DNA of 64,000 nt from Candidatus Izemoplasmatales bacterium (GTDB taxonomy: Bacteria; Bacillota_I; Bacilli_A; Izemoplasmatales; Hujiaoplasmataceae), in assembly GCA_028698875.1 (NCBI GenBank), contig JAQVVR010000004.1, positions 1 through 64,000 of the forward strand. Reading direction: 5' to 3'. Numbering within the stretch: the stretch's first letter is position 1; each line of letters begins with the position of its first letter. The notes below the pieces were generated by a model, which saw only the letters and a program-made list of their open reading frames with translations, ran no database searches and had not been told where the DNA came from. Shown here piece after piece: positions 23,982 to 47,997 of this stretch. The translations under genes and the position numbers were made by a program.

Positions 23982-24010
23982 TTGACAAACAAGAAAAATG
24001 ATTATATAAT
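23982..24010 (+). promoter_or_regulatory. Consensus promoter of the first c-di-GMP riboswitch operon
   Basis: TTGACA (23982-23987), 17-base spacer, TATAAT (24005-24010): a perfect vegetative-type promoter placed directly before the aptamer. Confidence 0.92.
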
Positions 24011-24015
24011 AACCT

Positions 24016-24123
24016 CGTAAATAGCAAAACTAGTGAAAACTAGCGACGCAAAGCTATAGGGCCTTCGATAATCGATGGTAGCCAGTTGCCGTTATCTTGT
24101 ACGAGATGAGGGCGTTTTTTTAT
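24016..24123 (+). promoter_or_regulatory. c-di-GMP-I (GEMM-I) riboswitch with overlapping terminator
   Basis: The aptamer shows the GEMM-I hallmarks in order: AGCAAAA, a stem CTAGT/ACTAG capped by a GAAA tetraloop, GACGCAAAGC, GGGCC, a stem with the receptor side GATGGTAGCCAG, and TTGCC. Helix P1 would pair ATAGC (24021-24025) with GTTAT (24091-24095). The same GTTAT strand lies in the left arm of a terminator: GCCGTTATCT (24088-24097) pairs with AGATGAGGGC (24104-24113), followed by TTTTTTT. Ligand binding should stabilise P1 and block the terminator, so an ON switch is inferred. A second T-run at about 24180 could be a further terminator. The rest of the leader (to 24273) holds no ORF. Confidence 0.9.
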
Positions 24124-24273
24124 TTCTTGAGACAAAACTGTCAAGAAGAGAAAACGATCTTCCTTATAAAGATAAGGGCTTTTTTATTAATATTAACTGA
24201 TATCCGTTTGCTTGAATCCAACTTATTTTGTACAATAAAAGTATATAACTATCGGAAAGCGAGATGATTATAG

Positions 24274-24975
24274 ATGACGGTAAAAAAACGTTTCTTTCTG
24301 TCCTTGGGTATGTTAGTTTTTTCGTTGTCTTTACTCGTTATAACAACCGTCAGTTGGTTAACTCAAACACTTGAACATTCCGTAATCGTCGAAGTTGGAT
24401 TTGTCGACGTCAGTATCGAAGTTTTTTTCTTTGATGAAACAACGCAGGTAACAACATCCGCTTCCGAAGTTGTCGTAGGACCGGGAGTTACAAAACCAGG
24501 AGTTTATCTTGTCAATATCGTCGAAAATTCCAGTGTCGATTTCTTTGATGATTTCCGGGTTCATATTGAAGTTCTTAGCAATGTACCAACTTATTTACGC
24601 GTCAAGATTTATGAACAATTAACTCTAACATATACCAATTTGGAGGGTGTCGTTACCGAATTATCAATCATTAACGATGAATATATGCCTTTTAATTTCG
24701 AAACTGATAATTGGTATGATAATCGTTTAATTGATAACTATATCTACTACAAAGAACCAGTCCAAAGAGAAGATGCTTTGACGGCTATGATTTTGGATTT
24801 AATTGACAGCGCCCCAGCGCCTGGGGATTTCACAATCTACTCCCCGGGGTATTCGCTACAAATTGCTTTTGGTATCGAAGCTGTCCAAGCTTCTGGAGGC
24901 CCTCAAAACGTTTGGGGCTTGTCAGTTCCGCCATGGAATACAGTCTTAGTCCCCGCTTCATGGGAGGTGGAGTAA
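24274..24975 (+). CDS. SipW-type secreted protein, TasA/camelysin-like
   Basis: This 233-residue protein starts with a SipW-dependent-type signal peptide: basic MTVKKR, a hydrophobic core, then TTVSWLTQT where the usual pattern is A/SWFT. Cleavage would require a SipW-type peptidase, two of which are encoded at 42.3 and 48.0 kb. The mature part is beta-rich with short segments such as LRVKIYEQLTL as in TasA/camelysin-like fibre subunits; I see no catalytic motif. It is the first gene after the c-di-GMP riboswitch and ends four bases before the 2903-aa surface protein, so it may be a partner or anchor for it. Confidence 0.65.
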   Translation: MTVKKRFFLSLGMLVFSLSLLVITTVSWLTQTLEHSVIVEVGFVDVSIEVFFFDETTQVTTSASEVVVGPGVTKPGVYLVNIVENSSVDFFDDFRVHIEVLSNVPTYLRVKIYEQLTLTYTNLEGVVTELSIINDEYMPFNFETDNWYDNRLIDNYIYYKEPVQREDALTAMILDLIDSAPAPGDFTIYSPGYSLQIAFGIEAVQASGGPQNVWGLSVPPWNTVLVPASWEVE

Positions 24976-24978
24976 GTT

Positions 24979-27900
24979 ATGTACCGACAATATAGAATTA
25001 AAAATCATCATCTCATGCGTTCCGTTTGTGGAGCGATTTTGGTATTGGTACTGTTTGTATCATCACTATTTTTCTTTCCTTCAGTATATGCTTTTATGAA
25101 CAAAAATCCTGGACTAGGAGATGAGTTTGAATTCAACGGTGATTTTCCTAGCGAGGGTTGGTATGCTGGACTTGATACGATGACGGATAATAATACATAT
25201 ATTACCTATACTGATTATCGGGATGATATATGTACTTTTGCATCAACCCTCGCCGAATGTGATGTGAAAGATACAAATAACATCATTCGAATTGATACAG
25301 CGGAAGAATTATATCGATTTTCTATCGACGTTTCATTTCAAAGAAAGTATGCCAGCGAGACCGAAAAATTTTCTGAAGCCCAAATGACTGTCATTTTAAA
25401 TCAAGATTATGCTTTGGGTAATGATATTGATTTTTCTTCGATGAATGCAAAAACATTTGCACCCATCGGTTTTTGGTTCACTACTTTTGATGAAATTGAG
25501 CATAAACAGTACTTTACAGGTACTTTTAACGGACAGGGATTCGTTATATCCAATCTCTACGTTGGTGGCGAAGATGACATGATTTTTATCGATTATGAAG
25601 ATGATCTTCCCGTCGACCTTGCCGTAGCACCTTATTATGCGATTTTTACTATTAATGGGGGAACAATTGCAAATCTAGGATTAATCGACCCCACATTAGA
25701 AATGCTTGAAGCCAATCAAGGAATCACCAAAACCGCCAATCTTGTCGGAAGCAACCTAGCTAGTGGTTATATTGATCATGTCTATGTGATTGATACTCGG
25801 GAAAGTGAATATGAGGCGGGTATTCGGTATAAGGGCGGTTCGACTGCGGGTGGGTGTACCGCAGCGGGAATAGTCCATACCAATGATGGCACTATTACCA
25901 ATGCATATTACTCATCAATTATGGTTGTCAATGGCTCATATTATAATAAATTCATTTCTCAACCAGTTTTGTATGTTAACAACGCTGGGGCTACTATTGG
26001 CAACCTAGTCTATGATTCGACTGTATATGATTACCCAACAGTAACGGTCGGAACTTCGACTTTCAATGTTGCATTGCCAAATGGAAACGCAGTTGGTGAA
26101 GCAACAAATGTCATGAAATCTTCCAGTTCGAGTTTAAATACATTTACTGATCATTGGTACTTTTATCCAGATGATTGTTACCCACTATCACACGGATTGA
26201 TTTGGGATGATACTAATGATGTTTATCTCATTCAATCGGCTGTCGATATGGTTTTCTTTTCTCATATTATCGGTTTTGAGACTGTTGATAATGGGGTATC
26301 ATATGCATATGCCAGTTATTATATAAATCAGAATATTGACATGGGTGTATTGGCTTCAGGTTCATATATTACTCCAGAACACACTTTTTATGGAACCCTT
26401 TCGGGAGCAAATCCATCCGCTGTTGATAATAGCGACAATTATTACTTATACAATTTATCCTTTACTAAAGGTACGATTCGTGGAGTTGGTTATTATACCG
26501 GCCTTTTTAGCATCCTTTCGGGAACGGTTCAAGATCTAAATATTACCGATACGACAATAGACATAACTGATACAGAAACATATTATAGCGATACCTTCTA
26601 TATTGGTGTGATAGCCGGCAGATTATCCGCAGGATTAATCAAAGAAGTATTAATGGACGTTTCAATTGATTTAGGAACATCTGCCATCGGTAAAACATAC
26701 TTAGGGGCATTTGCAGGGATGGCTTCAGGAACCATCACAAAAGTGGCGGTTACTGGAACAATCAATGCCAACTCGCATACTTTTAATTCTGCGTATAGCA
26801 TTTTCCCCACATATTACATTGGTGGAATTGCTGGGGCTACGGGCGTTACAAAATTGTCAATCTCCAATGTGGTCAACAATACTTTGATTACCGGATTTGC
26901 GACAGCATCAACCTTTAATTTGGCTAGTGGATCAACCGCAATTACCATTAAAATTGGTGGTGTCATCGGTTATATTCTTAATACTTCAACCATCAAACAT
27001 AGTCTGGTCAATGTTGCCAATAATGGGAATATTACCGCTGGTAGTGTCATTAATACAGTTCAATTGCCTTCTAGTCAAAACGTCGGTGGTGTTTTCGGTG
27101 AACTTGCTGGTAATGCACCTGTACTTCAAACCGGGGATACATATCAATTTGCAAATTTATATAACAGCGGCAATATTTCAGCGACCTACGCATCGCAAAC
27201 CGCAATTATTAAAGCCGCCGGCATCGGTATTTCCAATGCATCGGAAATTGTTGAATATGCTCTGATGTTTAACCATGGATCATTTACATATGGTAGTGCC
27301 CCATCACCAACGACTAATCCATATCCCTTCCGATATACGGGAACAATATATGATGTTGGGTCATCAGCGGTCACGATTTCCCGGGCATATAATTACGGGG
27401 ATCAAGTTTATTCATCAGCTTACTATACCAATATTAGTCCTTTGTATTATTCGCAAAGTAATAATTCAACATTAATTAGATATTCAGCCAATTATGGCGA
27501 TATTTCTTTTTTGAACAGCAACGGTACTTCACAAATCAATTTAGGTATTGATACCGTCATTTCTGGGATAACATCTTCATCAAATATCAATTATCTCAAC
27601 GTGGCCAATTATGGTGATATTTCAGCTGTAAATCTCAATTTAGGCTCCACATCGACAGCGTACACCCTTTCAGTTGCCGGAATCACATCAGTTCTTTCTG
27701 CTGATAAATATATGAAAAATTGTTTAAATGAAGGAAAAATCACCGTCGCTAAAATTGTTGGAACTTCCACAATCAGCGGTGGATATGGCAACATCTACAT
27801 CGGCGGACTCGTAAATGTCAATTATTCCGGAAATTTGCATGAGGAAACACAGCCAACTTTAGAAGGAATTTATAATTCCGTAAATTCTGGAGAAATTACC

Positions 27901-30900
27901 ACTTCATATGGGTTGAAAACGGACAATTTATACGGAATCTCTGGTTCAGCAAACACTTTTGCGGGTGGAATTGCGACATTAAATTCCGGCTCGATTCAAG
28001 ACTGTGCCAATTTGGGAGCGATTCGATTATACAACTCCAGCACGGGGACATCATACTTTCCAACAATTGAATCTTATTCATGGTTTGCCGGATTAATCAC
28101 GGGTTACATGGCTGGTGTCAGTGCCGGTGGTGTCGTTTGCGTTACATTAAGTGGCAATGCTCGAATTTATGATAGTGCCAATAATGGAGAAATCACCACT
28201 AAAGCATACTATTATGCTCGTTCTGGTGGTGTTTTGTCAACTTGTCTTTATACAGAGGCAATCGCAGGAGGAATCACATATAACCGCTTTGGGACTGATA
28301 ATAGTATCGACTTATCAGTGTTACTAAATGGGCTTAATTTTGGTAACATTACCGCCTTGACTTATGACATCGGCGATTATAACACTTATTCTGGAGCGAT
28401 AAACACCCGGATTTACTATAACAGCCCATCAACCCAAACGAGAACAACTGGAGGATATCGCTATTTTTATTCTACAACCGGAACTGCGGATCGTCCTGCA
28501 GTTTATTCATCTGCCGGTGGTGTTATCGGCTATGGTCTCTGTATTATGGAATGCATGTTAAATCATGGAACAATTTCGGCTATGGATGTGGCTGGTGGCA
28601 TTGTTGGGGCAACTTATGTTATAGGTGCTGAAAGCGGCAATGCAACAACAACAGTCAATATTACTACCGCCATTAATTATGGGGAAATAAAAGCTATTAA
28701 TTATACAAATTTTAATAATATTGATTCATATTTGCTTGACTATGAAGATGATAGTTCGGAAACACCGGTCAGTGGATATGTTAATTACTATCACTTGGCT
28801 GACGGTGACACTTCTTATATATTTCCAACTGGTTACACTTCGGAAACCCCTGGAAAGAAACGGGGATTTGGCGGTGTCTTTGGTCGGCTCCAACGAGGTA
28901 CTAATGGATGGATGACATCTGAAGACGGAGCATTTGACTTTGTCGTTAATGCTAATCCCAATATTGATTTAATTGGTCGAATGGATCAAGTTCAAAACTG
29001 GACAAGTTCTGGCTCATTCTTCTGTTTTGAGACTGCCAATTACTATTACTCAGCAAAGGTAAACGATACTACTCAAGTAGTCTTCAGTGGATTTTATCTT
29101 TGTTATGGAAAAACCGGATCTTATACCGGGTCTACGCCCAGAATTTATAATCTCACACCGACAACAAGATATACACAAATTGGAATGACGTGTGCAAATG
29201 GTGCTAGTTTTACTGAGGTCTTCACTTTTCCCACAACGACCTCATATAATACGAATACATACATATATATGTACGATGAGAGAATCCCAATTCCGTGGAT
29301 AACCGAAGATATTTCCGAAACATCAAATCCTGATGATGAATATATGTATGATGAAGATTTTCCTATGCGAGCCGAAGAGACATTAACCGATTTTATCTAT
29401 TATATGGAATATAATTTGTTAGCCGATCGATTCCGTTTAGAAATAGATGGGGGAACAGAAATCAACCCCAGAGAAAACGGCATGTATGTTTTGTCATCAA
29501 CTGAAGGTTCGACGGTTGGTGCGGTTTTACCGGCCAACTTAAAACTTGATAAGATCAGCGGTATTGATGAAGATGCCATTACACAGTTATCGTTACTTGT
29601 GGACTATACAATGGTACCAACAGAAAATCTTTTGAGCATGGATTTAAAGAATCTAATAAAACAATCGGATTCCTCTGTCGTTGCTATTGAAGGCAAAGAT
29701 TTATATAACACCCAAGCCCAAGCTTTAGCAGATGCTCCGTATTTTTACTACTCAGGAACACTTCGAGCCAGCGATATTGTCAATTTGGCTGGAACCTTAA
29801 CTTATACATACCATGACGATGTAATCGACTACTGGACATATGATGATGTTAATTATATTTTGGTTGGCGGTGATTTAGTTGAGCAGAATACGCCTGCCAA
29901 TATAGAGATTTCCGATAGCATGTTGTTTACAACGCAAGCCTTGGCGTATGAAGCTGCACCATACTATTATTTTACTGGTACCGTTTTGGCAAGCAATATC
30001 GTTAATTTAGCCGGAACTATTACTTATGTATATACCGATAGCACGGTTGATTATTGGACAAATGATAGTATCAATTATGTGTTTGCGCCCAGTTTAGAAG
30101 AACAGTATAACAACATGAAACAAACTCGGTTTAATGAAAAAACCGCGCTTTTTAACGCGGCTGGAGAAACCATCATATTAAATGAAGATGATGGTGATCA
30201 AACGGTTTTGGATAATGGCACTTTGACACTAAACAATAACGGAACTGCCAGTAATCCTTATGATGATTTTTATGAATTACATTATTCCATCAGTATGGAA
30301 GCTTTTACTGATGGTTCGCATGCGGTTGATTATCTAGTGATATTCGCTAATACTTCGGCCAATGCTTTAATAGCCAAACAGGCAACAGATCAATATGATG
30401 ATGGCAATCCGTTTTATTATTACTATACAGGAACAGTTGGGTTAAGTAATATTGTTAATACTAGTGGCAGCGTTACTTATACTTTTCATGACGACACAGT
30501 TGATTATTGGACATATAATGACACAAATTATGTTTTAAATGGTGGTAATCTTGTTAAACAGAATACTCCATCTGACATTGCGATTACTGATGCCAATCTT
30601 TTTGATACTTTAGCCAAAGCAATGGCAGCGGGTTTATTTTTCTATTACTCTGGCACCGTCGCTTTAAGCGATATAACTGATTTGGCCGGCGATGTCACTT
30701 ATGTATTCCATGATGATACAATTGATTATTGGACATACAATAGCGTAAATTATATCTTGAGTGGTGGCAACCTTGTTGAACAGAGTACGCCAGCAAACAT
30801 TGCCATTTATGCAAGTAATCTGTTTAATGATGAAAATTATTGCACTGCTGGTTTTTTGAAAGAATATCACTCTTGGCTGTATGAAGCTCAAGAAACGGAT

Positions 30901-33690
30901 ATTTCGGAAATGTATCCATCATTATTGAATATTACTATTCCACTAAAAACCATCCCTGATGATGATGAAGATAATTTATTAGGTGTATTTACGATTTATT
31001 CCGAAGCTTTTGTAGGAAATGATCTGTTTGCATCAAATCATTATTATACAAATTGTTATGTATATATCACTTTTACTCCGACCATTGATCAAATTTCCAC
31101 TGGCTTTATCGGTATTTCCACGGTTCAATTCAATGGCGGGGCAACCCAAACAGTAACGGATCAGTCGACCGTTATTGGACTTGGAAATGTTAACCCTGCT
31201 GGATCAATTACTTTTAACTTTTCCGATACCAAAGGCGTTTTAACAACTGGTCAAGATTTATCAGCATATGTCACGCTTAAATATTCAGATGGAACCGTAG
31301 TCAATCCAGAATTCTACACTAAAACAGCAACACTCGTTACGATTTCTGCAGGTACTGGCACAGGTTCAGTAACCATTACCTTTTCTCCATCAACACGTGG
31401 GGGAAATTATTACATGTACTACCGATACTTCTCATCAAGTACACTCAAAAATGTCATCTTTAACAAAACAAAGTCTTCAAGTGTTGTCATCACCGATGTT
31501 GACCATTATTCAATCGATGAATCTTTGAACATTAATGGCACAAACATTACCTCTTCAATCAATCTGGGATATGAAATTACAATTGAAAACGCTCCTTATT
31601 ACTATTACACGGGAACAGTTGGTTTAAGTAATATTGTCAATCTTTCGCAAACAATAACCTACACATATCACGATGACACGGTTGATTATTGGACGTATAA
31701 TTCAGTTAATTATATACTAAGCGGGGGTAATCTAGTGGAACAAAATACTCCTGCTAATATTGCCATAACCGATGCGAATTTATTTGATACACGAGTATTG
31801 GCTTTGGGTGCCACTTTGGGTCTTGGGAATTTTTCCAGTGCAACTGACTCGGGAGTCCCCACCTACTTAGATAATAAAACTTATTCAATCATTTACGGAT
31901 CAAATTATGTCAATTCCTTAACAATATCACCATTTGCGGATGTAATTGGTGTTTATCTCAATGGGATTTCCTATAACAATGGCTACAAAATATATGATAT
32001 TCGAATTGTCATAACTGCGGAGAACGGCACGGAAGCTACATATATTCATACAATTACGGAACGGACTATTGATCTGACTTCGGTGCTTAAAAATGGCAAC
32101 GAGATAGGACTTGAAGAAGTTGACGCAGCACGAGAAGATGACGAAACCATTTTTACTATCGATCTTGGTTTGGATAGCAATTTGAATTTATATCGCATTG
32201 CAGAATCGGGATCATTAGCCTATTTTATGATTTCAGCGACATTGAATGGCAATTCAATCGATCCATTAGAACACGGTATCTCGTTCTCTGTGGATGAAGA
32301 TAATATTGTAATAAGTGAACGATATAAAAATTTAGATTTAATAATGTCATATGAAGCAGAACCGGGCGATTATGTATTCACTTTCATTCTCTATCGCGAT
32401 GATACAGAGACATATTATGTCACCGTAGCGACCACTTTGACAATCATCAAAAACAAAGGTGAAAGTTCCCATTTAACCGATATTAAGTTTTCAGAGTTAG
32501 CCAATGAGACCTCATATCCCGATATTTATATTACCAGTGATACGGGTTCTTTATTAACGACTTCATACAATCCCCAAGTTTACTTTGCCGGAATTGATTA
32601 TGATGGCGCTGATGCGATAAACACCTATCATTATCGGATTGATGGTAAGGTGTCTAATGTTCCGTTGAACGAATACGCTCCTTTTATGACCGATTACTTA
32701 CCATATGGTGCGACAATAGCACGGCATTACTACAATGTCTATCTCTACTATTATTCTGGAACAGCAGAATTAAGCAATATAGTGAATCTTAACAGCGCAA
32801 TTACATATACATATCACGATGATACTGTTGATTACTGGACATATAATGGAGTAAATTACATTTTAAGTGGTGGTAATCTTGTGGAACAAAATACACCAGC
32901 TAATATCGCAATTGCGGAGGCAGATTTATTTGATACTAAAGTCGAGGCGGAGGCAGAGGCTTGGACATGGACTGATCCAATCGGTGCTAACGCGACCGAT
33001 GAAGAAAAGCAATTATTGGTGACTGACTTCACTGTTGATCCGGCTACGGGTCAAGAAATCGGCGAAGATGTTATCATTCAATATCGGGTTGTTTCTGAGG
33101 ATGAAGCCATAACAACTTATTATTTTATCACTGTTACCGATGTAACATATAACGTTACTTTGACATTTGGTATTTACTACTGCACGGGACTTGGCGATGA
33201 AACATGCACTTTAGCATCGGAAAGTGTTGATTTTGCCAACCAATTGGTCATGGTAACCGTACGAAACTATGATACCGATGGTGATGAAGCAGCGATTAAC
33301 ATCTCTTTAGATCCATTGGAATATCCCACTTTCTCAGAGATTCAAGGCTTAAATAATCAAATGACTCAATTCTATTTGACTTATTCTGGTTATTATCAAT
33401 ATAGTTTTGGTCGAAACATTAGTGGATTTTATGTCATTAGTCTTGATTTGCCACAAGACCAATATATGAATGACATCTATGAGTATTCAGTTAAAATCAG
33501 TGATTACACTTTAATTGATGCTTCCGAATATGTCGATGGCTTAGAGGGTAAATACTTCTTTATTGAAGGTAGCACCAAAAATAGAACGCGTAAGTTCAGC
33601 GTTTATATTCGCGAAATCGCTACTCCCGCAACTGATTCCCCATGGGGATTATATGAATTCTTCCGTTCATGGTGGGATGATGAGGAATAA
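24979..33690 (+). CDS. Giant (2903-aa) secreted surface protein with GLUG-like and novel repeats
   Basis: The protein has a signal peptide (hydrophobic core CGAILVLVLFVSSLFFF, cleavage near VYAF). Residues of about 90-180 resemble the opening of GLUG-type surface proteins (RIDTAEELYRFS, then NQDYALGNDIDFS, then GTFNGQGFVISNLYVGG). Up to about residue 1450 there are many irregular repeats of the form GGVIG, ANYGDIS, NNGEITT, consistent with a beta-helix. Residues of about 1575-2650 contain six copies of a module of about 70 residues among beta-sandwich-like segments. No LPXTG or C-terminal helix is seen; the C-terminus is acidic and Trp-rich (EFFRSWWDDEE). A role as adhesin or matrix component is inference. 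GGGAGGTGGAG precedes the ATG. It is controlled by the c-di-GMP riboswitch. Confidence 0.8.
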   Translation: MYRQYRIKNHHLMRSVCGAILVLVLFVSSLFFFPSVYAFMNKNPGLGDEFEFNGDFPSEGWYAGLDTMTDNNTYITYTDYRDDICTFASTLAECDVKDTNNIIRIDTAEELYRFSIDVSFQRKYASETEKFSEAQMTVILNQDYALGNDIDFSSMNAKTFAPIGFWFTTFDEIEHKQYFTGTFNGQGFVISNLYVGGEDDMIFIDYEDDLPVDLAVAPYYAIFTINGGTIANLGLIDPTLEMLEANQGITKTANLVGSNLASGYIDHVYVIDTRESEYEAGIRYKGGSTAGGCTAAGIVHTNDGTITNAYYSSIMVVNGSYYNKFISQPVLYVNNAGATIGNLVYDSTVYDYPTVTVGTSTFNVALPNGNAVGEATNVMKSSSSSLNTFTDHWYFYPDDCYPLSHGLIWDDTNDVYLIQSAVDMVFFSHIIGFETVDNGVSYAYASYYINQNIDMGVLASGSYITPEHTFYGTLSGANPSAVDNSDNYYLYNLSFTKGTIRGVGYYTGLFSILSGTVQDLNITDTTIDITDTETYYSDTFYIGVIAGRLSAGLIKEVLMDVSIDLGTSAIGKTYLGAFAGMASGTITKVAVTGTINANSHTFNSAYSIFPTYYIGGIAGATGVTKLSISNVVNNTLITGFATASTFNLASGSTAITIKIGGVIGYILNTSTIKHSLVNVANNGNITAGSVINTVQLPSSQNVGGVFGELAGNAPVLQTGDTYQFANLYNSGNISATYASQTAIIKAAGIGISNASEIVEYALMFNHGSFTYGSAPSPTTNPYPFRYTGTIYDVGSSAVTISRAYNYGDQVYSSAYYTNISPLYYSQSNNSTLIRYSANYGDISFLNSNGTSQINLGIDTVISGITSSSNINYLNVANYGDISAVNLNLGSTSTAYTLSVAGITSVLSADKYMKNCLNEGKITVAKIVGTSTISGGYGNIYIGGLVNVNYSGNLHEETQPTLEGIYNSVNSGEITTSYGLKTDNLYGISGSANTFAGGIATLNSGSIQDCANLGAIRLYNSSTGTSYFPTIESYSWFAGLITGYMAGVSAGGVVCVTLSGNARIYDSANNGEITTKAYYYARSGGVLSTCLYTEAIAGGITYNRFGTDNSIDLSVLLNGLNFGNITALTYDIGDYNTYSGAINTRIYYNSPSTQTRTTGGYRYFYSTTGTADRPAVYSSAGGVIGYGLCIMECMLNHGTISAMDVAGGIVGATYVIGAESGNATTTVNITTAINYGEIKAINYTNFNNIDSYLLDYEDDSSETPVSGYVNYYHLADGDTSYIFPTGYTSETPGKKRGFGGVFGRLQRGTNGWMTSEDGAFDFVVNANPNIDLIGRMDQVQNWTSSGSFFCFETANYYYSAKVNDTTQVVFSGFYLCYGKTGSYTGSTPRIYNLTPTTRYTQIGMTCANGASFTEVFTFPTTTSYNTNTYIYMYDERIPIPWITEDISETSNPDDEYMYDEDFPMRAEETLTDFIYYMEYNLLADRFRLEIDGGTEINPRENGMYVLSSTEGSTVGAVLPANLKLDKISGIDEDAITQLSLLVDYTMVPTENLLSMDLKNLIKQSDSSVVAIEGKDLYNTQAQALADAPYFYYSGTLRASDIVNLAGTLTYTYHDDVIDYWTYDDVNYILVGGDLVEQNTPANIEISDSMLFTTQALAYEAAPYYYFTGTVLASNIVNLAGTITYVYTDSTVDYWTNDSINYVFAPSLEEQYNNMKQTRFNEKTALFNAAGETIILNEDDGDQTVLDNGTLTLNNNGTASNPYDDFYELHYSISMEAFTDGSHAVDYLVIFANTSANALIAKQATDQYDDGNPFYYYYTGTVGLSNIVNTSGSVTYTFHDDTVDYWTYNDTNYVLNGGNLVKQNTPSDIAITDANLFDTLAKAMAAGLFFYYSGTVALSDITDLAGDVTYVFHDDTIDYWTYNSVNYILSGGNLVEQSTPANIAIYASNLFNDENYCTAGFLKEYHSWLYEAQETDISEMYPSLLNITIPLKTIPDDDEDNLLGVFTIYSEAFVGNDLFASNHYYTNCYVYITFTPTIDQISTGFIGISTVQFNGGATQTVTDQSTVIGLGNVNPAGSITFNFSDTKGVLTTGQDLSAYVTLKYSDGTVVNPEFYTKTATLVTISAGTGTGSVTITFSPSTRGGNYYMYYRYFSSSTLKNVIFNKTKSSSVVITDVDHYSIDESLNINGTNITSSINLGYEITIENAPYYYYTGTVGLSNIVNLSQTITYTYHDDTVDYWTYNSVNYILSGGNLVEQNTPANIAITDANLFDTRVLALGATLGLGNFSSATDSGVPTYLDNKTYSIIYGSNYVNSLTISPFADVIGVYLNGISYNNGYKIYDIRIVITAENGTEATYIHTITERTIDLTSVLKNGNEIGLEEVDAAREDDETIFTIDLGLDSNLNLYRIAESGSLAYFMISATLNGNSIDPLEHGISFSVDEDNIVISERYKNLDLIMSYEAEPGDYVFTFILYRDDTETYYVTVATTLTIIKNKGESSHLTDIKFSELANETSYPDIYITSDTGSLLTTSYNPQVYFAGIDYDGADAINTYHYRIDGKVSNVPLNEYAPFMTDYLPYGATIARHYYNVYLYYYSGTAELSNIVNLNSAITYTYHDDTVDYWTYNGVNYILSGGNLVEQNTPANIAIAEADLFDTKVEAEAEAWTWTDPIGANATDEEKQLLVTDFTVDPATGQEIGEDVIIQYRVVSEDEAITTYYFITVTDVTYNVTLTFGIYYCTGLGDETCTLASESVDFANQLVMVTVRNYDTDGDEAAINISLDPLEYPTFSEIQGLNNQMTQFYLTYSGYYQYSFGRNISGFYVISLDLPQDQYMNDIYEYSVKISDYTLIDASEYVDGLEGKYFFIEGSTKNRTRKFSVYIREIATPATDSPWGLYEFFRSWWDDEE
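29701..32937 (+). repeat. Six copies of a ~70-residue module in the giant surface protein
   Basis: Copies begin at about 29701, 29923, 30367, 30598, 31564 and 32719; the second is shortened at its end. The consensus runs from an LF-x-T start with alternating Ala, through YYY(S/T)GT, then SNIVNL, TITYTYHDDTVDYWTYN, VNYILSGGNLVEQNTPANI to the next LF-x-T. Copies 1-2 and 3-4 are tandem pairs; 5 and 6 are isolated between other domains. The protein sequence is far better conserved than the DNA, where synonymous positions differ freely. Confidence 0.85.
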
Positions 33691-33717
33691 AAATCACTGG
33701 GAAATTTGGTGAACAAA

Positions 33718-36303
33718 ATGAAGAAAATTAAAAAACAAAAGAGTCAACATGGATTATCGAATCGTATTGTCAGCATGACAGTTCTTTTCGATGCCTTTTT
33801 CTTGATTATCATAATGGCGGTTTTAGCTTTTGTATATGTTGATACAATTAACACCGAACGCGAAAACAATGCGACTTTGGTATCGACAAATGCGGCCACC
33901 GCCTTGCAAGCTTTCGTTGACGAAACTCGACTGAAAGTTGAAACCTTAGCACAAAACAGCAATATCAAAGCGTATATCGGTTATTTAAACACTGATCCTG
34001 ACTTAGCAGCCATTCCAGGAAAAACGGATGCAAATTATGCCATGTATTCGCGCTTTCTTGCGACGTTTAATGCAGTATGGAGTACAAGTCCGGAAAATGT
34101 ATACGATTTTATTTTCATTGCCTCAGAAACCACATGCGCTGCCAGTGGTAGTGGCTGTTTTGTCGGAGTCAATGATGAAATAATGACTTCATTGGCAGAA
34201 TCAGAATGGATGATTACTGACCGACAATGGTACACTGATGCCCAAGCTGATGCCAGTGTTGTTACTGTTTCAGAACCATATATCGATGTTATTTCTGAAG
34301 AATACACAATCACATTTACTGCCAGAATCCTTGATGATGGCAATACGATTGGGTATATTGGCATTGACGTTAACTTACCATCATTTACGGCCATCTTAGA
34401 AAATTATGAGCATTATTCCGGTGAGAGCGACAAACAGATGATGATTTTTCAAACGGCTGACACTGGCGATTCGACGATTTTATTTTATTCTGATCCATTA
34501 CATGACGATTACACAATGCTTTCTGGTGAGGCAATTGCCACAAAGGATCGCAGTATTGGCTATGCCGACAACGGATTGGCATTTATCATTGATAATTACA
34601 CAGGCAACGGCACAATTTATGAAACCAGTATTTTTGATGATCCCTACTTTATTATATATCCGCAATTGAGTGATATAGGATGGCGAGTTGCGGTATTGGC
34701 AGATCGTCCAGCATCCATTGCGGTGGAGATTATGTTTGTTATACTGTTGGGTTCAGTTGTCATTCTCATGGTCTTTATATCGTTAATCTTGGGAAAACGC
34801 ATAAAAATGACATTATCGCCAATCAATGACATTCTTGATTCAATTGATCAAATTAAAAAAGGCAACTTTGACATTTCGGTTCAGGTCCAAGAAAATAACG
34901 AACTGAAAAATGTTGCGGATGCTATCAACATAATGTCCAAGGAAATTGGTTCACAGATGGATTTGGTATATAAAAGTTTCTTGTATGATAGTATTACGGG
35001 CCTTAAAAACCGACGGGCTTGTCATCAAGATATCGAAGATAATGTGCTTGTTGGCAAAGATAAAGCCGCTATCTGCTTGATTGATGTCGATAATCTTAAA
35101 AATATTAATGTTACTAAAGGTCAATCTGTCGGCGATGAGTTGTTACAGGAATTTGCTCATCAGTTGGCAGTTACGGTTAGTTCCCCAGACTATGTTTTCA
35201 GCAATGGTGGGAATGAATTTATCTTTATCATGCCCAAAGTGAAAACGTTGGATGTCGTTGAAAGAGAATTGCTTAAGATTTTTGAACGATTCCGTGATCC
35301 CGTAGCGATTAAGAATATCAAGGTCGAAGTTAAATGCAACATTGGTGTGGCGATTTATCCCTACGACGGTAAAGAAATGGATGATTTAATCAAAAAATGC
35401 GATACCGCCTTGTTTAAGGCAAAACAAGCCGGTAATGGAACTTTTGTCTTCTATAATGACCAAATTACACGTGAGGTCAATTATAAAGCACAAATCAATG
35501 AGCAATTAGCAGAAGCAATTCAAAAAGAAGAACTTTTCTTAAAGTATCAACCCTTGATTGATAATAAAAATGAAATCTACGGGTTTGAAGCGTTAGCGCG
35601 TTGGAATTCACCAACACTTGGTGAAATTGGGCCTCAAGTCTTCATTTCCAATGCGGAAGAATCCCATTTGATTATTCCAATTGGCACATGGATTCTTCGT
35701 GAAGCATGTGTGTCGCAAGTTGCATTGTATAAACGTTTCAACCGACAGTTTGTCATGTCGGTCAATGTCAGCCCTGTTCAGATTCTTCAAAAGGATTTTA
35801 TCGATATCCTTAAACAAGTCATCGTTGACACTGATATTGATCCTCACTTTCTGGTTTTGGAAATTACTGAAGGTATTTTAATTGACTCAACGATTTATTT
35901 GGAGGAAACAATTAACTTTATTCACGAAATTGGCGCGAGAATTGCCTTGGATGATTTCGGAACCGGTTACGCATCACTAACGTATTTAAGAAAATTACCT
36001 TTTGACAATTTAAAGATTGATAAATCCTTTGTTGACGGAATCTTTTCCAGCAAAAAGGATCATAGCATTATCGGAACAATTGTTCAGTTAGTTCATAACT
36101 TAAACATGATTGTCATCGCTGAAGGCGTCGAAACTCGCAAACAATATGAGTTCTTAAAGCAGATTACTACTGACGTCTTCCAAGGTTTTTTGTTTTCAAA
36201 AGCACTTAATCTGGAAGAAACGATTAAGTACGTCGACCAATTTTACAAAGTAAACAAAACAAAACGAATTGACGTTTTTGCTAATAAAGATTATACTGAA
36301 TAG
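33718..36303 (+). CDS. Membrane dCache-HAMP-GGDEF-EAL protein (c-di-GMP phosphodiesterase)
   Basis: This protein of about 861 residues has TM1 at about 20-40, an extracellular Cache-like sensor of about 270 residues, TM2 (IMFVILLGSVVILMVFISLI), a HAMP-like linker, GGDEF, then EAL. The GGDEF site reads NGGNEF, so Asp/Glu is replaced by Asn and cyclase activity is doubtful. The EAL site looks intact: FEALARW, SVNVSP, LEITEG, LDDFGTGYASL, LKIDKSFV, AEGVE. It should hydrolyse c-di-GMP to pGpG in response to an outside signal. It lies 28 bases after the giant surface gene, in the operon of the first c-di-GMP riboswitch. The start at 33718 follows GGTGA; TTG/GTG codons lie just upstream. Confidence 0.88.
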   Translation: MKKIKKQKSQHGLSNRIVSMTVLFDAFFLIIIMAVLAFVYVDTINTERENNATLVSTNAATALQAFVDETRLKVETLAQNSNIKAYIGYLNTDPDLAAIPGKTDANYAMYSRFLATFNAVWSTSPENVYDFIFIASETTCAASGSGCFVGVNDEIMTSLAESEWMITDRQWYTDAQADASVVTVSEPYIDVISEEYTITFTARILDDGNTIGYIGIDVNLPSFTAILENYEHYSGESDKQMMIFQTADTGDSTILFYSDPLHDDYTMLSGEAIATKDRSIGYADNGLAFIIDNYTGNGTIYETSIFDDPYFIIYPQLSDIGWRVAVLADRPASIAVEIMFVILLGSVVILMVFISLILGKRIKMTLSPINDILDSIDQIKKGNFDISVQVQENNELKNVADAINIMSKEIGSQMDLVYKSFLYDSITGLKNRRACHQDIEDNVLVGKDKAAICLIDVDNLKNINVTKGQSVGDELLQEFAHQLAVTVSSPDYVFSNGGNEFIFIMPKVKTLDVVERELLKIFERFRDPVAIKNIKVEVKCNIGVAIYPYDGKEMDDLIKKCDTALFKAKQAGNGTFVFYNDQITREVNYKAQINEQLAEAIQKEELFLKYQPLIDNKNEIYGFEALARWNSPTLGEIGPQVFISNAEESHLIIPIGTWILREACVSQVALYKRFNRQFVMSVNVSPVQILQKDFIDILKQVIVDTDIDPHFLVLEITEGILIDSTIYLEETINFIHEIGARIALDDFGTGYASLTYLRKLPFDNLKIDKSFVDGIFSSKKDHSIIGTIVQLVHNLNMIVIAEGVETRKQYEFLKQITTDVFQGFLFSKALNLEETIKYVDQFYKVNKTKRIDVFANKDYTE

Positions 36304-36317
36304 AAAGGAGAATCGCC

Positions 36318-37844
36318 ATGAGCCGATATCTACCATTTTTTCTAACTACATATGGATCAGATGCCTTAGCAATTGTTGTTGCAGTCATAATTGTTGTTGT
36401 CACGATAGTTGTAATAATTTTTCTTGGCCGCGATGTAATTAAAGACATCAAAACCGATCTTGAGGATCGTCGTTTTCTGCGTGAACAGAAACAAGCGGAG
36501 AATGATACGAATGACGCAGACAAATCGGGTTTGGTTGCCGAACGTAAAGTCATCAGTCGTCGTAGCAAGGATTTGCTGGCTTTGATTGATCAGGATATCT
36601 ATCGGTCCAAAGAAGGCAATATCAGCGTCCTCTTTTATATGAACCTTGATAATTTCCGCGCCATCAGTGAGCGCTTTGGAACTGCCAAAGCCGGTAAAGT
36701 AATTGAGGAAATTGCAGCCAAAATCAAAAAGGTTGGCGATAATAAAAAAGCAATTTCTGGGGCACATGAAAGTGACATTTTGATATATTACCTTCCCGGC
36801 CCAGTTGATAATGAAGTTATCGAAAAATATGCAAATGATTTATTGACGGCTGTCAATTCGCCGATGAAAGCCATTGAAGAGCAAGTTACTACTTCAATAG
36901 GTATTGCCATCTTTCCTTTTGATGGCATTACGATTCAACAATTAATTAAGAATGCTGAAATTGCGCTTTATGTGGCTAAAAAACAAGGTAAAAACCAATT
37001 TGCGCTTTATTCAAGTGATTTGATTGAAAAGGAACAATTTAACATCAATTATTACCATGAAATTAAGAAATCGATTTCCAATGATGAGTTTTTACTTTAT
37101 TATCAACCGATTGTTGATATTAAAACGGGAAAGTTAATCGGATTGGAATCGTTACTACGATGGAATCACCCCACGATGGGAATTCTCTCCCCAGGAAAAT
37201 TCTTAAATGTTATGGACTTAACTGGCGATATAACTTGGTTTGGTACTTGGGGGTTTGAAAAAATTGTGCAACAATATGTTGCTTGGAAAAAAACTTTTCG
37301 TTTAAAAGATATGTTTATCTCTACTAACCTATCACCAAAACAACTGATGACGGAGAACCTGGCAAAAGCGTTTTTTGATATTGTCAAGAAATATCACTTT
37401 GATTCCGAATCATTCTGTTTGGAAATCATTGATTACTATACGGTCATAAAAAATCAGACAGCAGTAAATAATCTCTCAGAATTTCGCCGCTATGGATTCC
37501 GTGTCGCAATTGATGATCTTGGTGATCAATATGAACTTGCTCAAGATATCGAACGTGTTCACGGAAATATCATAAAGATTTGTCGAGAAGATGTCATGAA
37601 GATTGTCAACGACTTCGATGAAGCATCAAAGATCGATCGTGTTATCTCAGCCGCTCTTAAAATGCAAAAAGTTGTAATCGCCGAAGGCATTGAAGATGAG
37701 TCAATGATTCAGCTGATGAATGCCAAAGGAGTTCGCTTTTTGCAAGGGTATTATTTTAGTCAACCGAAATCCGCCGATGAAACAGCGCAACTATTTAAGA
37801 AAACACCATGGTCTTTTGAACATTTAGCAGAAATCACGAAATAA
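36318..37844 (+). CDS. Membrane protein with degenerate GGDEF and EAL domains
   Basis: This 508-residue protein has one N-terminal transmembrane helix (about 15-38) and no large extracellular sensor, then a GGDEF-like and an EAL-like domain. The GGDEF site is replaced by AHESDIL, so no cyclase activity is expected. The EAL site is also altered: LESLLRW for EAL, LEIIDYY for the LEITE Glu, and DDLGDQYEL for DDFGTGY, while NLSPKQL, IIKI and AEGIEDE remain. It is probably a c-di-GMP receptor or a regulator of its neighbour rather than an enzyme. AGAAAGGAG precedes the start, 14 bases after the previous gene. A terminator follows. Confidence 0.82.
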   Translation: MSRYLPFFLTTYGSDALAIVVAVIIVVVTIVVIIFLGRDVIKDIKTDLEDRRFLREQKQAENDTNDADKSGLVAERKVISRRSKDLLALIDQDIYRSKEGNISVLFYMNLDNFRAISERFGTAKAGKVIEEIAAKIKKVGDNKKAISGAHESDILIYYLPGPVDNEVIEKYANDLLTAVNSPMKAIEEQVTTSIGIAIFPFDGITIQQLIKNAEIALYVAKKQGKNQFALYSSDLIEKEQFNINYYHEIKKSISNDEFLLYYQPIVDIKTGKLIGLESLLRWNHPTMGILSPGKFLNVMDLTGDITWFGTWGFEKIVQQYVAWKKTFRLKDMFISTNLSPKQLMTENLAKAFFDIVKKYHFDSESFCLEIIDYYTVIKNQTAVNNLSEFRRYGFRVAIDDLGDQYELAQDIERVHGNIIKICREDVMKIVNDFDEASKIDRVISAALKMQKVVIAEGIEDESMIQLMNAKGVRFLQGYYFSQPKSADETAQLFKKTPWSFEHLAEITK

Positions 37845-37845
37845 G

Positions 37846-37873
37846 CACGTACTAAGTACGTGGGTTTTATTTT
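37846..37873 (+). terminator. Terminator of the first c-di-GMP operon
   Basis: CACGTAC (37846-37852) pairs with GTACGTG (37856-37862) around a 3-base loop, followed by TTTTATTTT. Confidence 0.8.
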
Positions 37874-37915
37874 GCACAAAACACCACAAAAACAAAAAAA
37901 ATTGTATAATATCCC

Positions 37916-37944
37916 TTGACAAGAGGAAACGCATATAATATAAT
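37916..37944 (+). promoter_or_regulatory. Consensus promoter of the second c-di-GMP riboswitch operon
   Basis: TTGACA (37916-37921), 17-base spacer, TATAAT (37939-37944), the same exact hexamers and spacing as the promoter at 23982. Confidence 0.92.
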
Positions 37945-37950
37945 GAATGC

Positions 37951-38058
37951 GTAAATAGCAAAACTAGTGAAAGCTAGTGACGCAAAGCTAAAGGGCCTTC
38001 GATAATCGATGGTAGCCAGTTGCCGTTATCTTGTTTAAGATGAGGGCGTTTTTTTATT
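37951..38058 (+). promoter_or_regulatory. Second c-di-GMP-I (GEMM-I) riboswitch with overlapping terminator
   Basis: Nearly identical to the element at 24.0 kb over about 85 bases. The GAAA-capped stem is CTAGT/GCTAG here, keeping pairing through G-U. P1 pairs ATAGC (37955-37959) with GTTAT (38025-38029). The terminator is longer and better: GCCGTTATCTT (38022-38032) with AAGATGAGGGC (38037-38047), followed by seven T. Again the P1 strand is shared, so ligand-induced antitermination is inferred. A second T-run (TTTTTTATTT at about 38120) follows a weak hairpin. The remainder of the leader to 38184 has no ORF. Confidence 0.9.
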
Positions 38059-38184
38059 TCAAGGGAGATTAATATTTCTTTGAAACGAAAAACGACCAAG
38101 TCGAAAATCGGGTAGTGGCTTTTTTATTTCTTAAGCCGACCCGAAACTAGGACAAAGGGGGAACGGAGGGGATCAACTGACGAT

Positions 38185-38994
38185 ATGGGCCAAAAAGCTA
38201 AATTAGCCGAACAGATCTTACATGCATCACGGGTTGCGAAGATCGCCAAAGCCAGTCGTTTAGGAATCGCCATCAGTGCCATCATGTCCTTCATGATATT
38301 TGCAATTTCGTATTATGGCGAAGAAGTTGGAAATTTTACATTTACCGTCAATGAGATGGCTTTCAAAGCTGGAATTCAGCTCTATGAGACGCTTTCTGAT
38401 ACTGATGGTAATACAAGGCTTAACGCTCCTCAAATCGACAGTGCTGACGGAATGACTTCGTTGTGTGGAACAATCTATTCTTCCAAACCAATTGGCAATG
38501 AAGTTTGTCTTCCCAGCGATGAAATACTTAGTTCAGTAGATGGTTCCAATAGTGGCGATTCTTACTTGGTTTATACCTTCTATATTCGCAATGGTGGAAC
38601 AATCCCCGTTGATTTAAGCACTACTATCGATGTAATATCAGCAACAAGAGGAGCAGAAGAGGCGGTACGACTCCGAGTTATATTTGATGGAGTTGGTGAT
38701 GATTATTCCGCCACAACTTACGCCAGGGTTCAAACAACAAGAAATGATAATCCAAACGCCGGGCTCCCTGAGCCGGAAACCACTCCGTTCTTCAGTGAAA
38801 CACAAGTTTTAAATCATGAGTTCATCAATGAAGCACGAAACGGGTATCTTCAACCGGGAGAAACAATTCGGATAACCGTAATTCTCTGGTATGAAGGCGA
38901 AGATGCCGATCACAATTTAAATATTGTGGGCGGTGGTGTAAAACTTTCCATGGAATTTACTGTACCAAATCCGAACAAGTATGCCCCGTATTAA
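38185..38994 (+). CDS. TasA/camelysin-like exported protein, first gene of the fibre operon
   Basis: This 269-residue protein has an unusually long basic and amphipathic N-terminus (KAKLAEQILHASRVAKIAKA) before a hydrophobic segment (LGIAISAIMSFMIFAIS), as in some SipW substrates. The mature part is beta-rich. The pattern YLVYTFYIRNGGTIPVDLS and the C-terminal LQPGETIRITVILWYEGED resemble TasA-type domains (Peptidase_M73/TasA family). A pair of Cys about 12 residues apart (LCGTIYSS and EVCLPSDE) might form a disulfide. GGAGGGG lies 13 bases before the ATG, wider than usual, and no better in-frame start exists. It could be a fibre anchor or minor subunit. Confidence 0.65.
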   Translation: MGQKAKLAEQILHASRVAKIAKASRLGIAISAIMSFMIFAISYYGEEVGNFTFTVNEMAFKAGIQLYETLSDTDGNTRLNAPQIDSADGMTSLCGTIYSSKPIGNEVCLPSDEILSSVDGSNSGDSYLVYTFYIRNGGTIPVDLSTTIDVISATRGAEEAVRLRVIFDGVGDDYSATTYARVQTTRNDNPNAGLPEPETTPFFSETQVLNHEFINEARNGYLQPGETIRITVILWYEGEDADHNLNIVGGGVKLSMEFTVPNPNKYAPY

Positions 38995-39054
38995 ACTAAC
39001 ACAGTCTACAAAAAAACAAAAAATAGAGGAAAAATAGAAAAGGAGAATTTAATT

Positions 39055-40035
39055 ATGAAATCTTTACAAACCAAAGTTATTTTATCAGCAATTGTTTTAA
39101 TGTTTGCCTTGGTCGCCACAATTGGCTCGACCTATGCATGGTTTACCGTATCAAACACAGTAACTGTCAGTGAAATTCAAATGAATGTTCAGTCCAGTGA
39201 ATCATTATTAATCCGCGCCTATAATGGCGAAGATGGCGATGAGGCCTTCTTACTGGATGCGACAAGTTATGTTGCTAATCTTACTTTAGCTGACATTCTT
39301 ACCCCATCTACTAGTGCGGCAATGATTGCTGGTGGGTATGTTGATAATAACACATATGATAATCTTTCCGCATGGAGACTTAGCCCAGTTACAGCTACCT
39401 CTGCACTTAATGGAACAACAATTGATGGTTATAATCTGAGCATAATGAATATTGATACTAAAGCTTACACCGCAATTGACCCTTCACTTCCTTCTGCAGA
39501 TGTCAACAGCGCAACCGGAAAAGTAATCGACATCAGTTTTTGGCTATTATCACAAGGAACAACTGGCTTACCAATCGTACTTGAAGATTTGACGATTTCC
39601 GCTTCCAACGTCCTTGGAGCTCAAGATGCCGTTGTCAACGCTGTTAAATTGGCTGTTTGGAAAGCAGCAAATGCAGATACACCAGTAACACCTGCTGCTG
39701 TTACTTTCGGATTAGACAATGATTATGATTTCGCATTTACTCTTGGTATGAGAGGCTATGATTCAGTAACCGCTGCCAACAACTCGATTTTAACCGCAAG
39801 CAAAACCAGTTTATTGGCTGCTCAAGAAGAATATTATAAAACAGGCGAAACTGCTGATACCGCTGATGTATTTTCATATACTTTAGCTGGTGCTGATGCC
39901 ATCACCACTTTAACAAAGAACGTTCCAACCTTAGTTACTGTTAGAATCTATATTGAAGGTTGGGATGCACAATGCACAAACTCAGTCTTAGCTGCTATTT
40001 TCACACTCAATTTCAAATTCACACTCCAACAATAA
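39055..40035 (+). CDS. SipW-type secreted fibre-subunit candidate, paralogue 1
   Basis: This 326-residue protein has a classic SipW-dependent signal: MKSLQTK, hydrophobic core, then GSTYAWFTVSN with cleavage expected near TYA-WF. It has two close paralogues just downstream. Shared features are IQMNVQSSESLLIR after the signal, an internal IDISFWLLSQG, and the C-terminal block VTVRIYIEGWDAQCTNS ending in a hydrophobic beta strand (FTLNFKFTL). Ala, Thr, Asn and Ser are abundant, fitting an extracellular structural subunit. AAAAGGAG before ATG is the best ribosome binding site in the operon, hinting at high expression. TasA-like by signal type and composition; direct homology cannot be claimed by eye. 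Confidence 0.75.
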   Translation: MKSLQTKVILSAIVLMFALVATIGSTYAWFTVSNTVTVSEIQMNVQSSESLLIRAYNGEDGDEAFLLDATSYVANLTLADILTPSTSAAMIAGGYVDNNTYDNLSAWRLSPVTATSALNGTTIDGYNLSIMNIDTKAYTAIDPSLPSADVNSATGKVIDISFWLLSQGTTGLPIVLEDLTISASNVLGAQDAVVNAVKLAVWKAANADTPVTPAAVTFGLDNDYDFAFTLGMRGYDSVTAANNSILTASKTSLLAAQEEYYKTGETADTADVFSYTLAGADAITTLTKNVPTLVTVRIYIEGWDAQCTNSVLAAIFTLNFKFTLQQ

Positions 40036-40099
40036 AAATTCATCAATTAAAATCATGCTTTGCAAAAACTATCATCTGCTAAGTAAGGGGGAAAACGGA

Positions 40100-41086
40100 A
40101 TGAAAAGTTTAAAGATTAAAGTATTATTGTCAGGGTTAGTCCTCATGTTTGCAATCGCTGCTTCATTTGGAACGACCTATGCCTGGTTCACCATCTCCAA
40201 TACAGTAAATATTGACTCGATGACTATTAATGTTCAATCTGGAGAGTCATTATTAATTCGCGTATATAAAGGCGAGTATTTGGGAGAAGATCCTGTCAAA
40301 CTGGCCGCTGATGAAGCGGGCTTGCTCGATGCTTCCACTTACAAAAATTCCCTTTCCATTGATGATATTCTTGCTTCAACAAGTTATGTTGAAGATACTG
40401 TCGTCTTATTTCCGGGATATCAGCATTTACTTGATTGGAGACTTGGTCCCGTCACCGCTGCTGAATCTGGATATATGGCCTTAAATGGAAAATCATTGAA
40501 GACGATGAACATTCTGACAAAAACCCTTACTGAAACGACCAACAGCAATGATGATGAAGGCGACTTCATTGAATTAAAGTTTTGGCTGATGGCACAAGTC
40601 ACTGCGGAAAATGTTGTTTTATCTGATTTATCGATCACATATGACGAAGAAGATAATCTACTTGCTTCGCAAGACAATGTCATATATGCTGTCAATGTTG
40701 CCGCATGGCGCTCACAAGTTAAGGATGTTCCAACTGCTGATGTGGCAAAAATATATAGTATTGATCCTGATTATGGTTTTGTTTTCACAAATGGGATGAA
40801 TGGCGGCGAAGATGATCCTGATGCGTTTGCACCGTTTGCCTTGACAACCACTCAGATCAATTCATTACTTGATGATCATGCCTTGTTTGATTCAGTGACG
40901 GATGTTGATTACGTTTCGGTTGCTGACAAAACAACGGCGACTACTTTGGCAGCTTTATCAGCTGATACTCCGACTCTCATCACGGTCCGGATTTATATTG
41001 AAGGCTGGGATGCTCAAATGAATAATGCTATTTTGGCTTCTAAATTTGACATTTCCTTCGCTTTTGTAATCAAAAACGCTGCTTAA
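40100..41086 (+). CDS. SipW-type secreted fibre-subunit candidate, paralogue 2
   Basis: This 328-residue paralogue of the preceding gene has the signal MKSLKIK plus hydrophobic core and GTTYAWFTISN. It shares the post-signal block MTINVQSGESLLIRVY, the internal FIELKFWLMAQ and the C-terminal VRIYIEGWDAQMNNAIL. It is more acidic than paralogue 1 in the middle. The start at 40100 is fixed by AAGGGGG and by alignment with the paralogues. It lies 64 bases after paralogue 1, with no terminator between. Confidence 0.75.
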   Translation: MKSLKIKVLLSGLVLMFAIAASFGTTYAWFTISNTVNIDSMTINVQSGESLLIRVYKGEYLGEDPVKLAADEAGLLDASTYKNSLSIDDILASTSYVEDTVVLFPGYQHLLDWRLGPVTAAESGYMALNGKSLKTMNILTKTLTETTNSNDDEGDFIELKFWLMAQVTAENVVLSDLSITYDEEDNLLASQDNVIYAVNVAAWRSQVKDVPTADVAKIYSIDPDYGFVFTNGMNGGEDDPDAFAPFALTTTQINSLLDDHALFDSVTDVDYVSVADKTTATTLAALSADTPTLITVRIYIEGWDAQMNNAILASKFDISFAFVIKNAA

Positions 41087-41159
41087 CAAGGAGTTTCATT
41101 TTCTTCAAAAGCAAATACTTTCACGAATACAAAATTATATGCAAAGAAGGTAATATTTG

Positions 41160-42035: not shown

Positions 42036-42062
42036 TTACTTTGGAATAACTAAAACCCAAAT

Positions 42063-42105
42063 ATACTAACACAACTTAGGGTTAAAGCCTAAGTTGTGTT
42101 AGTAT
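42063..42105 (+). other. Perfect 18-bp inverted repeat between fibre genes and sipW1
   Basis: The arm at 42063-42080 pairs without mismatch with 42088-42105 around a 7-base loop. It is followed by AAGGGGTTGTTTTT, so the T-run begins about 10 bases late. It may be a leaky terminator or a 3'-end stabilising hairpin. The remaining intergenic sequence to 42295 contains a TATAAT at about 42245 without a well-placed -35. Confidence 0.8.
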
Positions 42106-42295
42106 AAGGGGTTGTTTTTCCCAAAATCGTCCTTTTTTTCTTGACGGCTTTGGGAAAGCCAATCGCTAAATCGGGGAAAATCCCATAAAATCACTTCGAT
42201 AGTCGATTATTTCTTAAAAAATTGATGAAATAATTTCCAACATACTATATAATATAGTGTAATGGAAAATATTGTACTTTTAAGGAGCGTGTTTT

Positions 42296-43009: not shown

Positions 43010-43060
43010 CCCTGTCTAAAGCTTAAGTCATGCCGAACATGGAGAGGGGGGACTGTCGAA

Positions 43061-44731: not shown

Positions 44732-44751
44732 CGGGGGGGTCTTGATAAATT

Positions 44752-46575: not shown

Positions 46576-46643
46576 CCATAGTAATATGTTCGAAAGAGCA
46601 ATGTTTTCGATAAAAAGGAGAAGTTGACAAAAGAGGTGATACC

Positions 46644-47270: not shown

Positions 47271-47281
47271 GGGATGAAACG

Positions 47282-47941: not shown

Positions 47942-47954
47942 ACCGAGCACCATT

Positions 47955-47977
47955 ACGGAGTCAAATTTTGACTCCGT
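47955..47977 (+). other. Perfect 11-bp inverted repeat between secreted-protein gene and sipW2
   Basis: ACGGAGTCAAA (47955-47965) pairs with TTTGACTCCGT (47967-47977). No T-run follows, so it is not a standard terminator. Its position mirrors that of the hairpin before the first signal peptidase gene. Confidence 0.75.
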
Positions 47978-47997
47978 TGCTTTAGAAGAGGATTATC

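Follow-up and report, generated by a model that had tools for sequence, protein, structure and literature searches.

Two GEMM-I riboswitches and the operons behind them were analysed in a 64,000-nucleotide stretch of a Candidatus Izemoplasmatales bacterium (assembly GCA_028698875.1, contig JAQVVR010000004.1, positions 1 to 64,000 of the forward strand; hereafter the window). Our main proposal is that the first of these operons is switched on by cyclic di-GMP (c-di-GMP) and carries its own c-di-GMP phosphodiesterase, which would make it a negative feedback circuit, and we put the probability of this reading at about 0.6. Both aptamers have an A at position 20, and each leader contains a second terminator that would use the same 5' arm as the first; these features go beyond the first-pass annotation of this DNA, made from its letters and open reading frames.

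The riboswitches and the phosphodiesterase gene

The presence of two GEMM-I aptamers, each behind a perfect promoter, had been proposed by the first-pass annotation and is borne out here. In a cmscan search with the c-di-GMP-I model (RF01051), both exceeded the gathering cut-off of 35 bits: aptamer 1 (24013-24093, on the plus strand like all window features given below) with 63.5 bits (E 4.4e-10), and aptamer 2 (37947-38027) with 65.3 bits (E 1.6e-10). The promoters, at 23982-24010 and 37916-37944 just before the aptamers, match TTGACA-17-TATAAT at 12/12 positions, and the aptamers of relatives are also preceded by TTGACA and a TATAAT-like box. The two are nearly identical to each other. The ligand-pairing C after P3 (C92 in Vc2 numbering), in the motif AGUUGCC, is kept in nearly all sites of the window's own family (f1). 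GEMM-I RNAs are present in 74 of 101 related genomes, and no third aptamer of this class was found in the window's own genome (1.42 Mb, 88% complete).

Operon 1 consists of four genes, SP1, GIANT, PDE and DEG, with gaps of a few to 16 bases. Inspection of residues upheld the earlier description of the last two as an EAL protein with an intact active site followed by a degenerate GGDEF-EAL protein. PDE (33706-36303; 865 residues; dCache-HAMP-GGNEF-EAL by Pfam) has EAL, N, E, DDFGTG, K, E and Q in place, and its fully covered orthologues have the same set, save for ESL in place of EAL in one of them; 14 sequences were fully covered in this comparison. The GG[DE]EF signature of diguanylate cyclases is found in neither protein, since the motif is degenerate in PDE (GGNEF in the window) and absent from DEG (36318-37844; 508 residues), a membrane protein with degenerate GGDEF and EAL domains according to Pfam and its residues. 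With its EAL residues intact and its GGDEF motif degenerate, PDE is therefore predicted to be a c-di-GMP phosphodiesterase with a regulatory GGDEF domain.

The linkage of this gene to the riboswitch, also claimed earlier, is conserved family-wide. The surroundings of about 60 GEMM-I sites were retrieved and annotated across related genomes, and in each of the 15 f1 genomes with a contig that extends to it, PDE lies inside a riboswitch operon. The order riboswitch, SP1, GIANT, PDE is found in 12 f1 genomes (the window's own and 11 others), followed by DEG in each except G017, whose contig stops within PDE, while in three genomes (G007, G022 and G028) PDE and DEG stand directly behind the riboswitch. 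In the sister family f2 (G036 and G038), the riboswitch is followed by genes for a signal peptidase, an AAA protein, a DUF2357 protein and a second signal peptidase, and the run again ends in PDE and DEG; separate GEMM-I sites precede the giant genes of G036. PDE thus swaps neighbours and yet remains behind a riboswitch across f1 and f2. The paralogous locus G025b has GIANT and DEG without PDE. At site L068 of G025 (strain zrk2, a family member with a complete genome, CP076020.1), the fibre and giant operon is present a second time, joined into one run behind an aptamer with G at position 20, with DEG and no PDE. A built-in delay set by the giant gene was considered as a conserved function and rejected, because PDE lies right behind the riboswitch in the three relatives mentioned above. 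The pulse-like switch that had been envisaged is not supported, being only one possible dynamic of negative feedback and one that needs particular rates.

Two terminators proposed to share one aptamer strand

The overlap of each aptamer with a terminator, noted in the first-pass annotation, was found in both leaders. Terminator 1 of leader 1 (24088-24121) has its 5' arm, GCCGUUAUCUU, at 24088-24098, the end of its 3' arm at 24113 and a U-tract to 24121, and its pairs are kept across relatives; its counterpart in leader 2 (38022-38055) has a 5' arm from 38022 and a 3' arm that ends at 38047. In each leader the 5' arm starts from the GCC in the conserved 3' end of the aptamer and contains the ligand-pairing C. 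Without ligand, the terminator folds of the window leaders are favoured by 3.7-6.9 kcal/mol, a difference that binding of ligand at nanomolar affinity would be expected to reverse. The same kind of exclusion operates in the pilM ON switch of Geobacter metallireducens, in which the terminator takes the ligand-pairing C, making aptamer and terminator mutually exclusive (PMC9262584). Because aptamer and terminator 1 compete for one strand, and the terminator folds are favoured when no ligand is bound, both window leaders are predicted to be transcriptional ON switches. The earlier claim that high c-di-GMP turns the operon on thus stands as to polarity, which the topology predicts, with c-di-GMP as the likelier but not the only candidate ligand. 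The pilM leader also shares a cGAMP-type aptamer with the window leaders but differs from them in that one terminator has been described, pilus genes lie downstream, no EAL gene is present and Geobacter has Hypr cyclases.

Each window leader has a second stop, as do most f1 leaders of the two operon types. Its 3' arm and U-tract occupy 24169-24185 in leader 1 (AAGAUAAGGGC, pairing with 24088-24098) and 38109-38125 in leader 2 (GGUAGUGGC, pairing with 38022-38032). The second 3' arms read GAUAAUGGC, GGUAGUGGC, GGUGAUGGC, GACAAUGGC and others, each followed by a U-tract, and end 46-88 nt from the ends of the first. In all 49 leaders where the second terminator was recognised by pattern, this arm pairs with the 5' arm GCCGUURUC at 8-9 of 9 positions, a level that 1 of 1812 control positions elsewhere in these leaders attained; the leader sequences are related, so that the pairing statistics given here are not independent tests. 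The pattern is missing from ten f1 sites, of which several lie where a contig ends or precede other genes. We also observed that terminator 1 has a G-G mismatch at its fourth pair (24091 and 38025 in the window) in 41 of the 49 leaders, and that terminator 2 has a G-U there in 44; this difference may tune the relative strength of the two.

From the leader alignment RNAalifold returned terminator 1 alone. Since the program can report just a single fold where two exclude each other, the structure of terminator 2 was specified explicitly and tested on 22 leaders aligned without supervision. In this structure 92.4% of cells were paired, against 37-58% when it was slid, and its covariation score was reached by 3 of 500 shuffles, although the number of doubly changed pairs in these 22 leaders did not exceed that in shuffled controls (207/500). 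Covariation is weak in the outer helix taken by itself, since U can pair with both A and G. In the inner helix the tail and U-tract of terminator 1 pair with an A-rich stretch downstream, and the fit of each leader to its own stretch was beaten by none of 5000 permutations. The support for terminator 2 therefore comes from complementarity, from the slid controls and from the covariation score. The simplest reading of these patterns is that one aptamer strand serves as 5' arm for two successive, mutually exclusive terminators, so that one ligand would gate both. No precedent for such a shared-arm double terminator was found in the open literature, where the nearest parallel is Bc1 of Bacillus thuringiensis with its two separate hairpins (PMC11218506).

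The circuit that we propose would work as follows. At low ligand, the aptamer's 3' end GCCGUURUC, with its ligand-pairing C, would be captured by terminator 1, and any RNA polymerase that passed it would meet terminator 2, whose 3' arm would take the same strand. Ligand binding would keep this strand in the aptamer and so relieve both stops. Opening of operon 1 would yield the giant surface protein and, lastly, the EAL phosphodiesterase and a degenerate GGDEF-EAL binder, while that of operon 2 would yield TasA-like fibres and SipW-type peptidases. By lowering c-di-GMP, PDE would then exert negative feedback on both operons, provided that transcription reads through to the EAL genes and that the enzyme is active, both of which we infer; such feedback may accelerate the response, limit it or keep it steady.

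Competing explanations

Several observations weigh against the feedback circuit. The A at position 20 of both aptamers is the nucleotide selective for 3',3'-cyclic GMP-AMP (cGAMP) in Geobacter. A local 6-bp hairpin (CCUUAU/AUAAGG) is also present at terminator 2 of leader 1 and might act independently of the ligand, as the second hairpin of the Bc1 riboswitch does (PMC11218506). Promoter-like boxes matching at 10/12 positions, at chance frequency, occur at 33376 and 36269, and this genus has a further candidate, TTGCTT-17-TACAAT, behind terminator 2 (about 24209-24237). Finally, the window's own genome has 14 GGDEF and five EAL domains in total, and the four EAL domains other than that of PDE, one of them in DEG, could swamp any feedback.

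The alternative that survives best is that PDE and DEG form a module dedicated to post-translational control of the surface proteins, in which a c-di-GMP receptor and a local phosphodiesterase would act in the manner of LapD or of trigger phosphodiesterases, and not a cell-wide feedback; we consider it somewhat unlikely as a replacement for the feedback circuit. Pseudomonas pairs LapA, a giant surface protein, with LapD, a degenerate membrane GGDEF-EAL protein, and is not known to use a riboswitch for this. Operon 1 has the same protein pairing, behind a riboswitch, although its DEG lacks the periplasmic domain of LapD. In DEG, loop 6 of the EAL domain is lost, with AIDDLGDQYELA in place of a DDFGTGYSSL-type loop, while the f1 orthologues, in which the loop is likewise lost, keep E, N, E, D, K, E and Q, as a binder would, with E, N, E, K, E and Q as the ligand-holding residues. 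Having lost loop 6 but kept these residues, DEG is therefore predicted to be more likely a c-di-GMP binder than an enzyme. Its company of surface or export genes also speaks for a local role, and active phosphodiesterases can themselves be effectors (PMC5052742). On the other hand, the catalytic residues of PDE are intact throughout, and DEG, beyond a short N-terminal membrane segment, has no domain matches but GGDEF and EAL. A local module and a feedback circuit are in any case compatible, and both can be true.

According to the second alternative, the aptamers belong to the GEMM-Ib type and sense cGAMP, so that the operons would be cGAMP-ON and the action of the EAL protein on c-di-GMP would be cross-talk instead of feedback. 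At position 20, where the consensus carries the ligand-contacting G of the c-di-GMP-selective GEMM-Ia type, the Rfam alignment gives the two window aptamers an A; nearly all f1 sites share this A, and the f2 and f3 sites and a few f1 sites have a G. The rule that equates A20 with cGAMP was taken from studies in which replacing A by G at this position converted a cGAMP switch of Geobacter into one for c-di-GMP (PMC6456294), and in which an A variant of a Desulfobacca aptamer gained cGAMP binding (PMC9481103); the likeness in topology to pilM, itself a cGAMP ON switch (PMC9262584), points the same way. However, the Desulfobacca variant still bound c-di-GMP, with an affinity perhaps slightly weaker (PMC9481103), and the conserved partner of the riboswitch is an EAL enzyme. 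Moreover, the intact GGDEF domains aligned from the window's own genome (88% complete) and two complete relatives carry the canonical Asp, with no Hypr Ser among them, and c-di-GMP is therefore their expected product; a cyclase of the SMODS/DncV type had no match in the same 88%-complete genome and is present in only 3 of 34 family genomes. For these reasons c-di-GMP is the likelier ligand, possibly with relaxed specificity, and sensing of cGAMP seems to us improbable, although A20 speaks for it. A wider proposal, that a shared-arm two-terminator platform kept family-wide controls a ligand-removing phosphodiesterase and that its A20 pocket is a c-di-GMP sensor which breaks the A20 rule, is put forward tentatively, as we would give it slightly less than even odds.

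Terminator 2 might instead be constitutive and leave the riboswitch hardly responsive. Such is the case of Bc1 in Bacillus thuringiensis, where one GEMM-I aptamer likewise precedes two intrinsic terminators, which are palindromic hairpins with 28 bp between them, and where the second stays folded with ligand and masks any response to c-di-GMP (PMC11218506). The weak local hairpin before the second U-tract of window leader 1 would fit this scheme. In contrast to the separate hairpins of Bc1, however, terminator 2 borrows the aptamer strand in the 49 leaders, leader 1 having the local hairpin as a weak alternative, and most family leaders have no good local 5' arm for it. The compound fold ranges from -24.7 to -46.2 kcal/mol, the local one being often weaker than -10 kcal/mol, and a constitutive second stop is accordingly very unlikely. 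Least probable of all is that an internal promoter drives PDE and DEG apart from the riboswitch: the first-pass annotation had held that a strong promoter behind the terminator would uncouple the EAL genes, but none that is strong or conserved precedes them, the 10/12 boxes listed above belong to a scan that gave 23 where 18.1 were expected, a number within chance, no conserved promoter was found upstream of PDE among 10 relatives, and PDE is the first riboswitch gene in three genomes.

Neighbouring genes, related sites and significance

The genes of operon 1 upstream of PDE encode exported products. SP1 (24274-24975) is an open reading frame for a small secreted protein of 233 residues with a SipW/TasA-like N-terminal signal, conserved in the family and without a Pfam match. 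GIANT (24979-33690), of 2903 residues, is a secreted, repeat-bearing surface protein, 41-53% identical to its relatives over the aligned part, and neither it nor the fibre proteins matched any Pfam or NCBIfam family. A terminator at 37846-37870 follows operon 1. The two riboswitch operons are adjacent in the window genome (37844-37916), whereas in relatives other genes lie between them; by eye, this block holds a TetR-like regulator and thiolase-like and acyl-type enzymes. Operon 2 (38185-48672) comprises F1, three proteins labelled TasA/CalY-like by eye, a SipW-type signal peptidase, an AAA ATPase, a DUF2357 protein, two more secreted proteins and a second SipW-type signal peptidase, in the same order as in relatives. 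Its ATPase has its nearest named relatives in Candidatus Izemoplasmatales and related Tenericutes/Bacillota assemblies, the best of them 94% identical. Relatives of this ATPase (in the region 43061-46575, where the DUF2357 gene is its neighbour) also occur far beyond the family, in Acholeplasma, Anaeroplasma and Christensenellaceae assemblies.

Other GEMM-I sites of these genomes lead to different genes. In f3, a family of order-level relatives, a G20 aptamer (L133:910-5671 of G035) is followed by three MreB paralogues in a row and a degenerate EAL protein, as identified by Pfam, and the same MreB arrangement was judged from gene sizes and order in L135 (G045) and L137 (G039); control of the actin-like skeleton by a cyclic dinucleotide is possible in this order. 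Three tandem aptamers, of which two have a C at position 20, precede small secreted proteins on the minus strand of L084 (G015), and doublets occur in L096 (G007) and L079 (G027). A further f1 class (L092, L097, L110 and L123) has other genes downstream, mostly with a weak match to a SipW-type peptidase, and lacks the shared-arm second terminator.

Among known systems, Bc2 of Bacillus thuringiensis resembles operon 1 as a class I ON switch before a large surface protein, in this case a collagen adhesion protein, and the text that cites it mentions neither a phosphodiesterase nor a shared-arm second terminator (PMC6366702). VpsT of Vibrio cholerae is likewise tied to c-di-GMP homeostasis, with a protein transcription factor in place of an RNA switch (PMC8754643). 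Our search of the open literature found no work that joins Izemoplasma and c-di-GMP. Cells of Izemoplasma strain zrk13, which has been cultured, are without a distinct cell wall (PMC8397711). If the feedback circuit is true, it would constitute direct feedback at the RNA level on a second messenger in wall-less bacteria, present in a whole family in which PDE moves between operons and yet stays under a riboswitch, with a two-stage terminator open to test. The same leaders would also provide a natural test of nucleotide 20 as a predictor of ligand identity.

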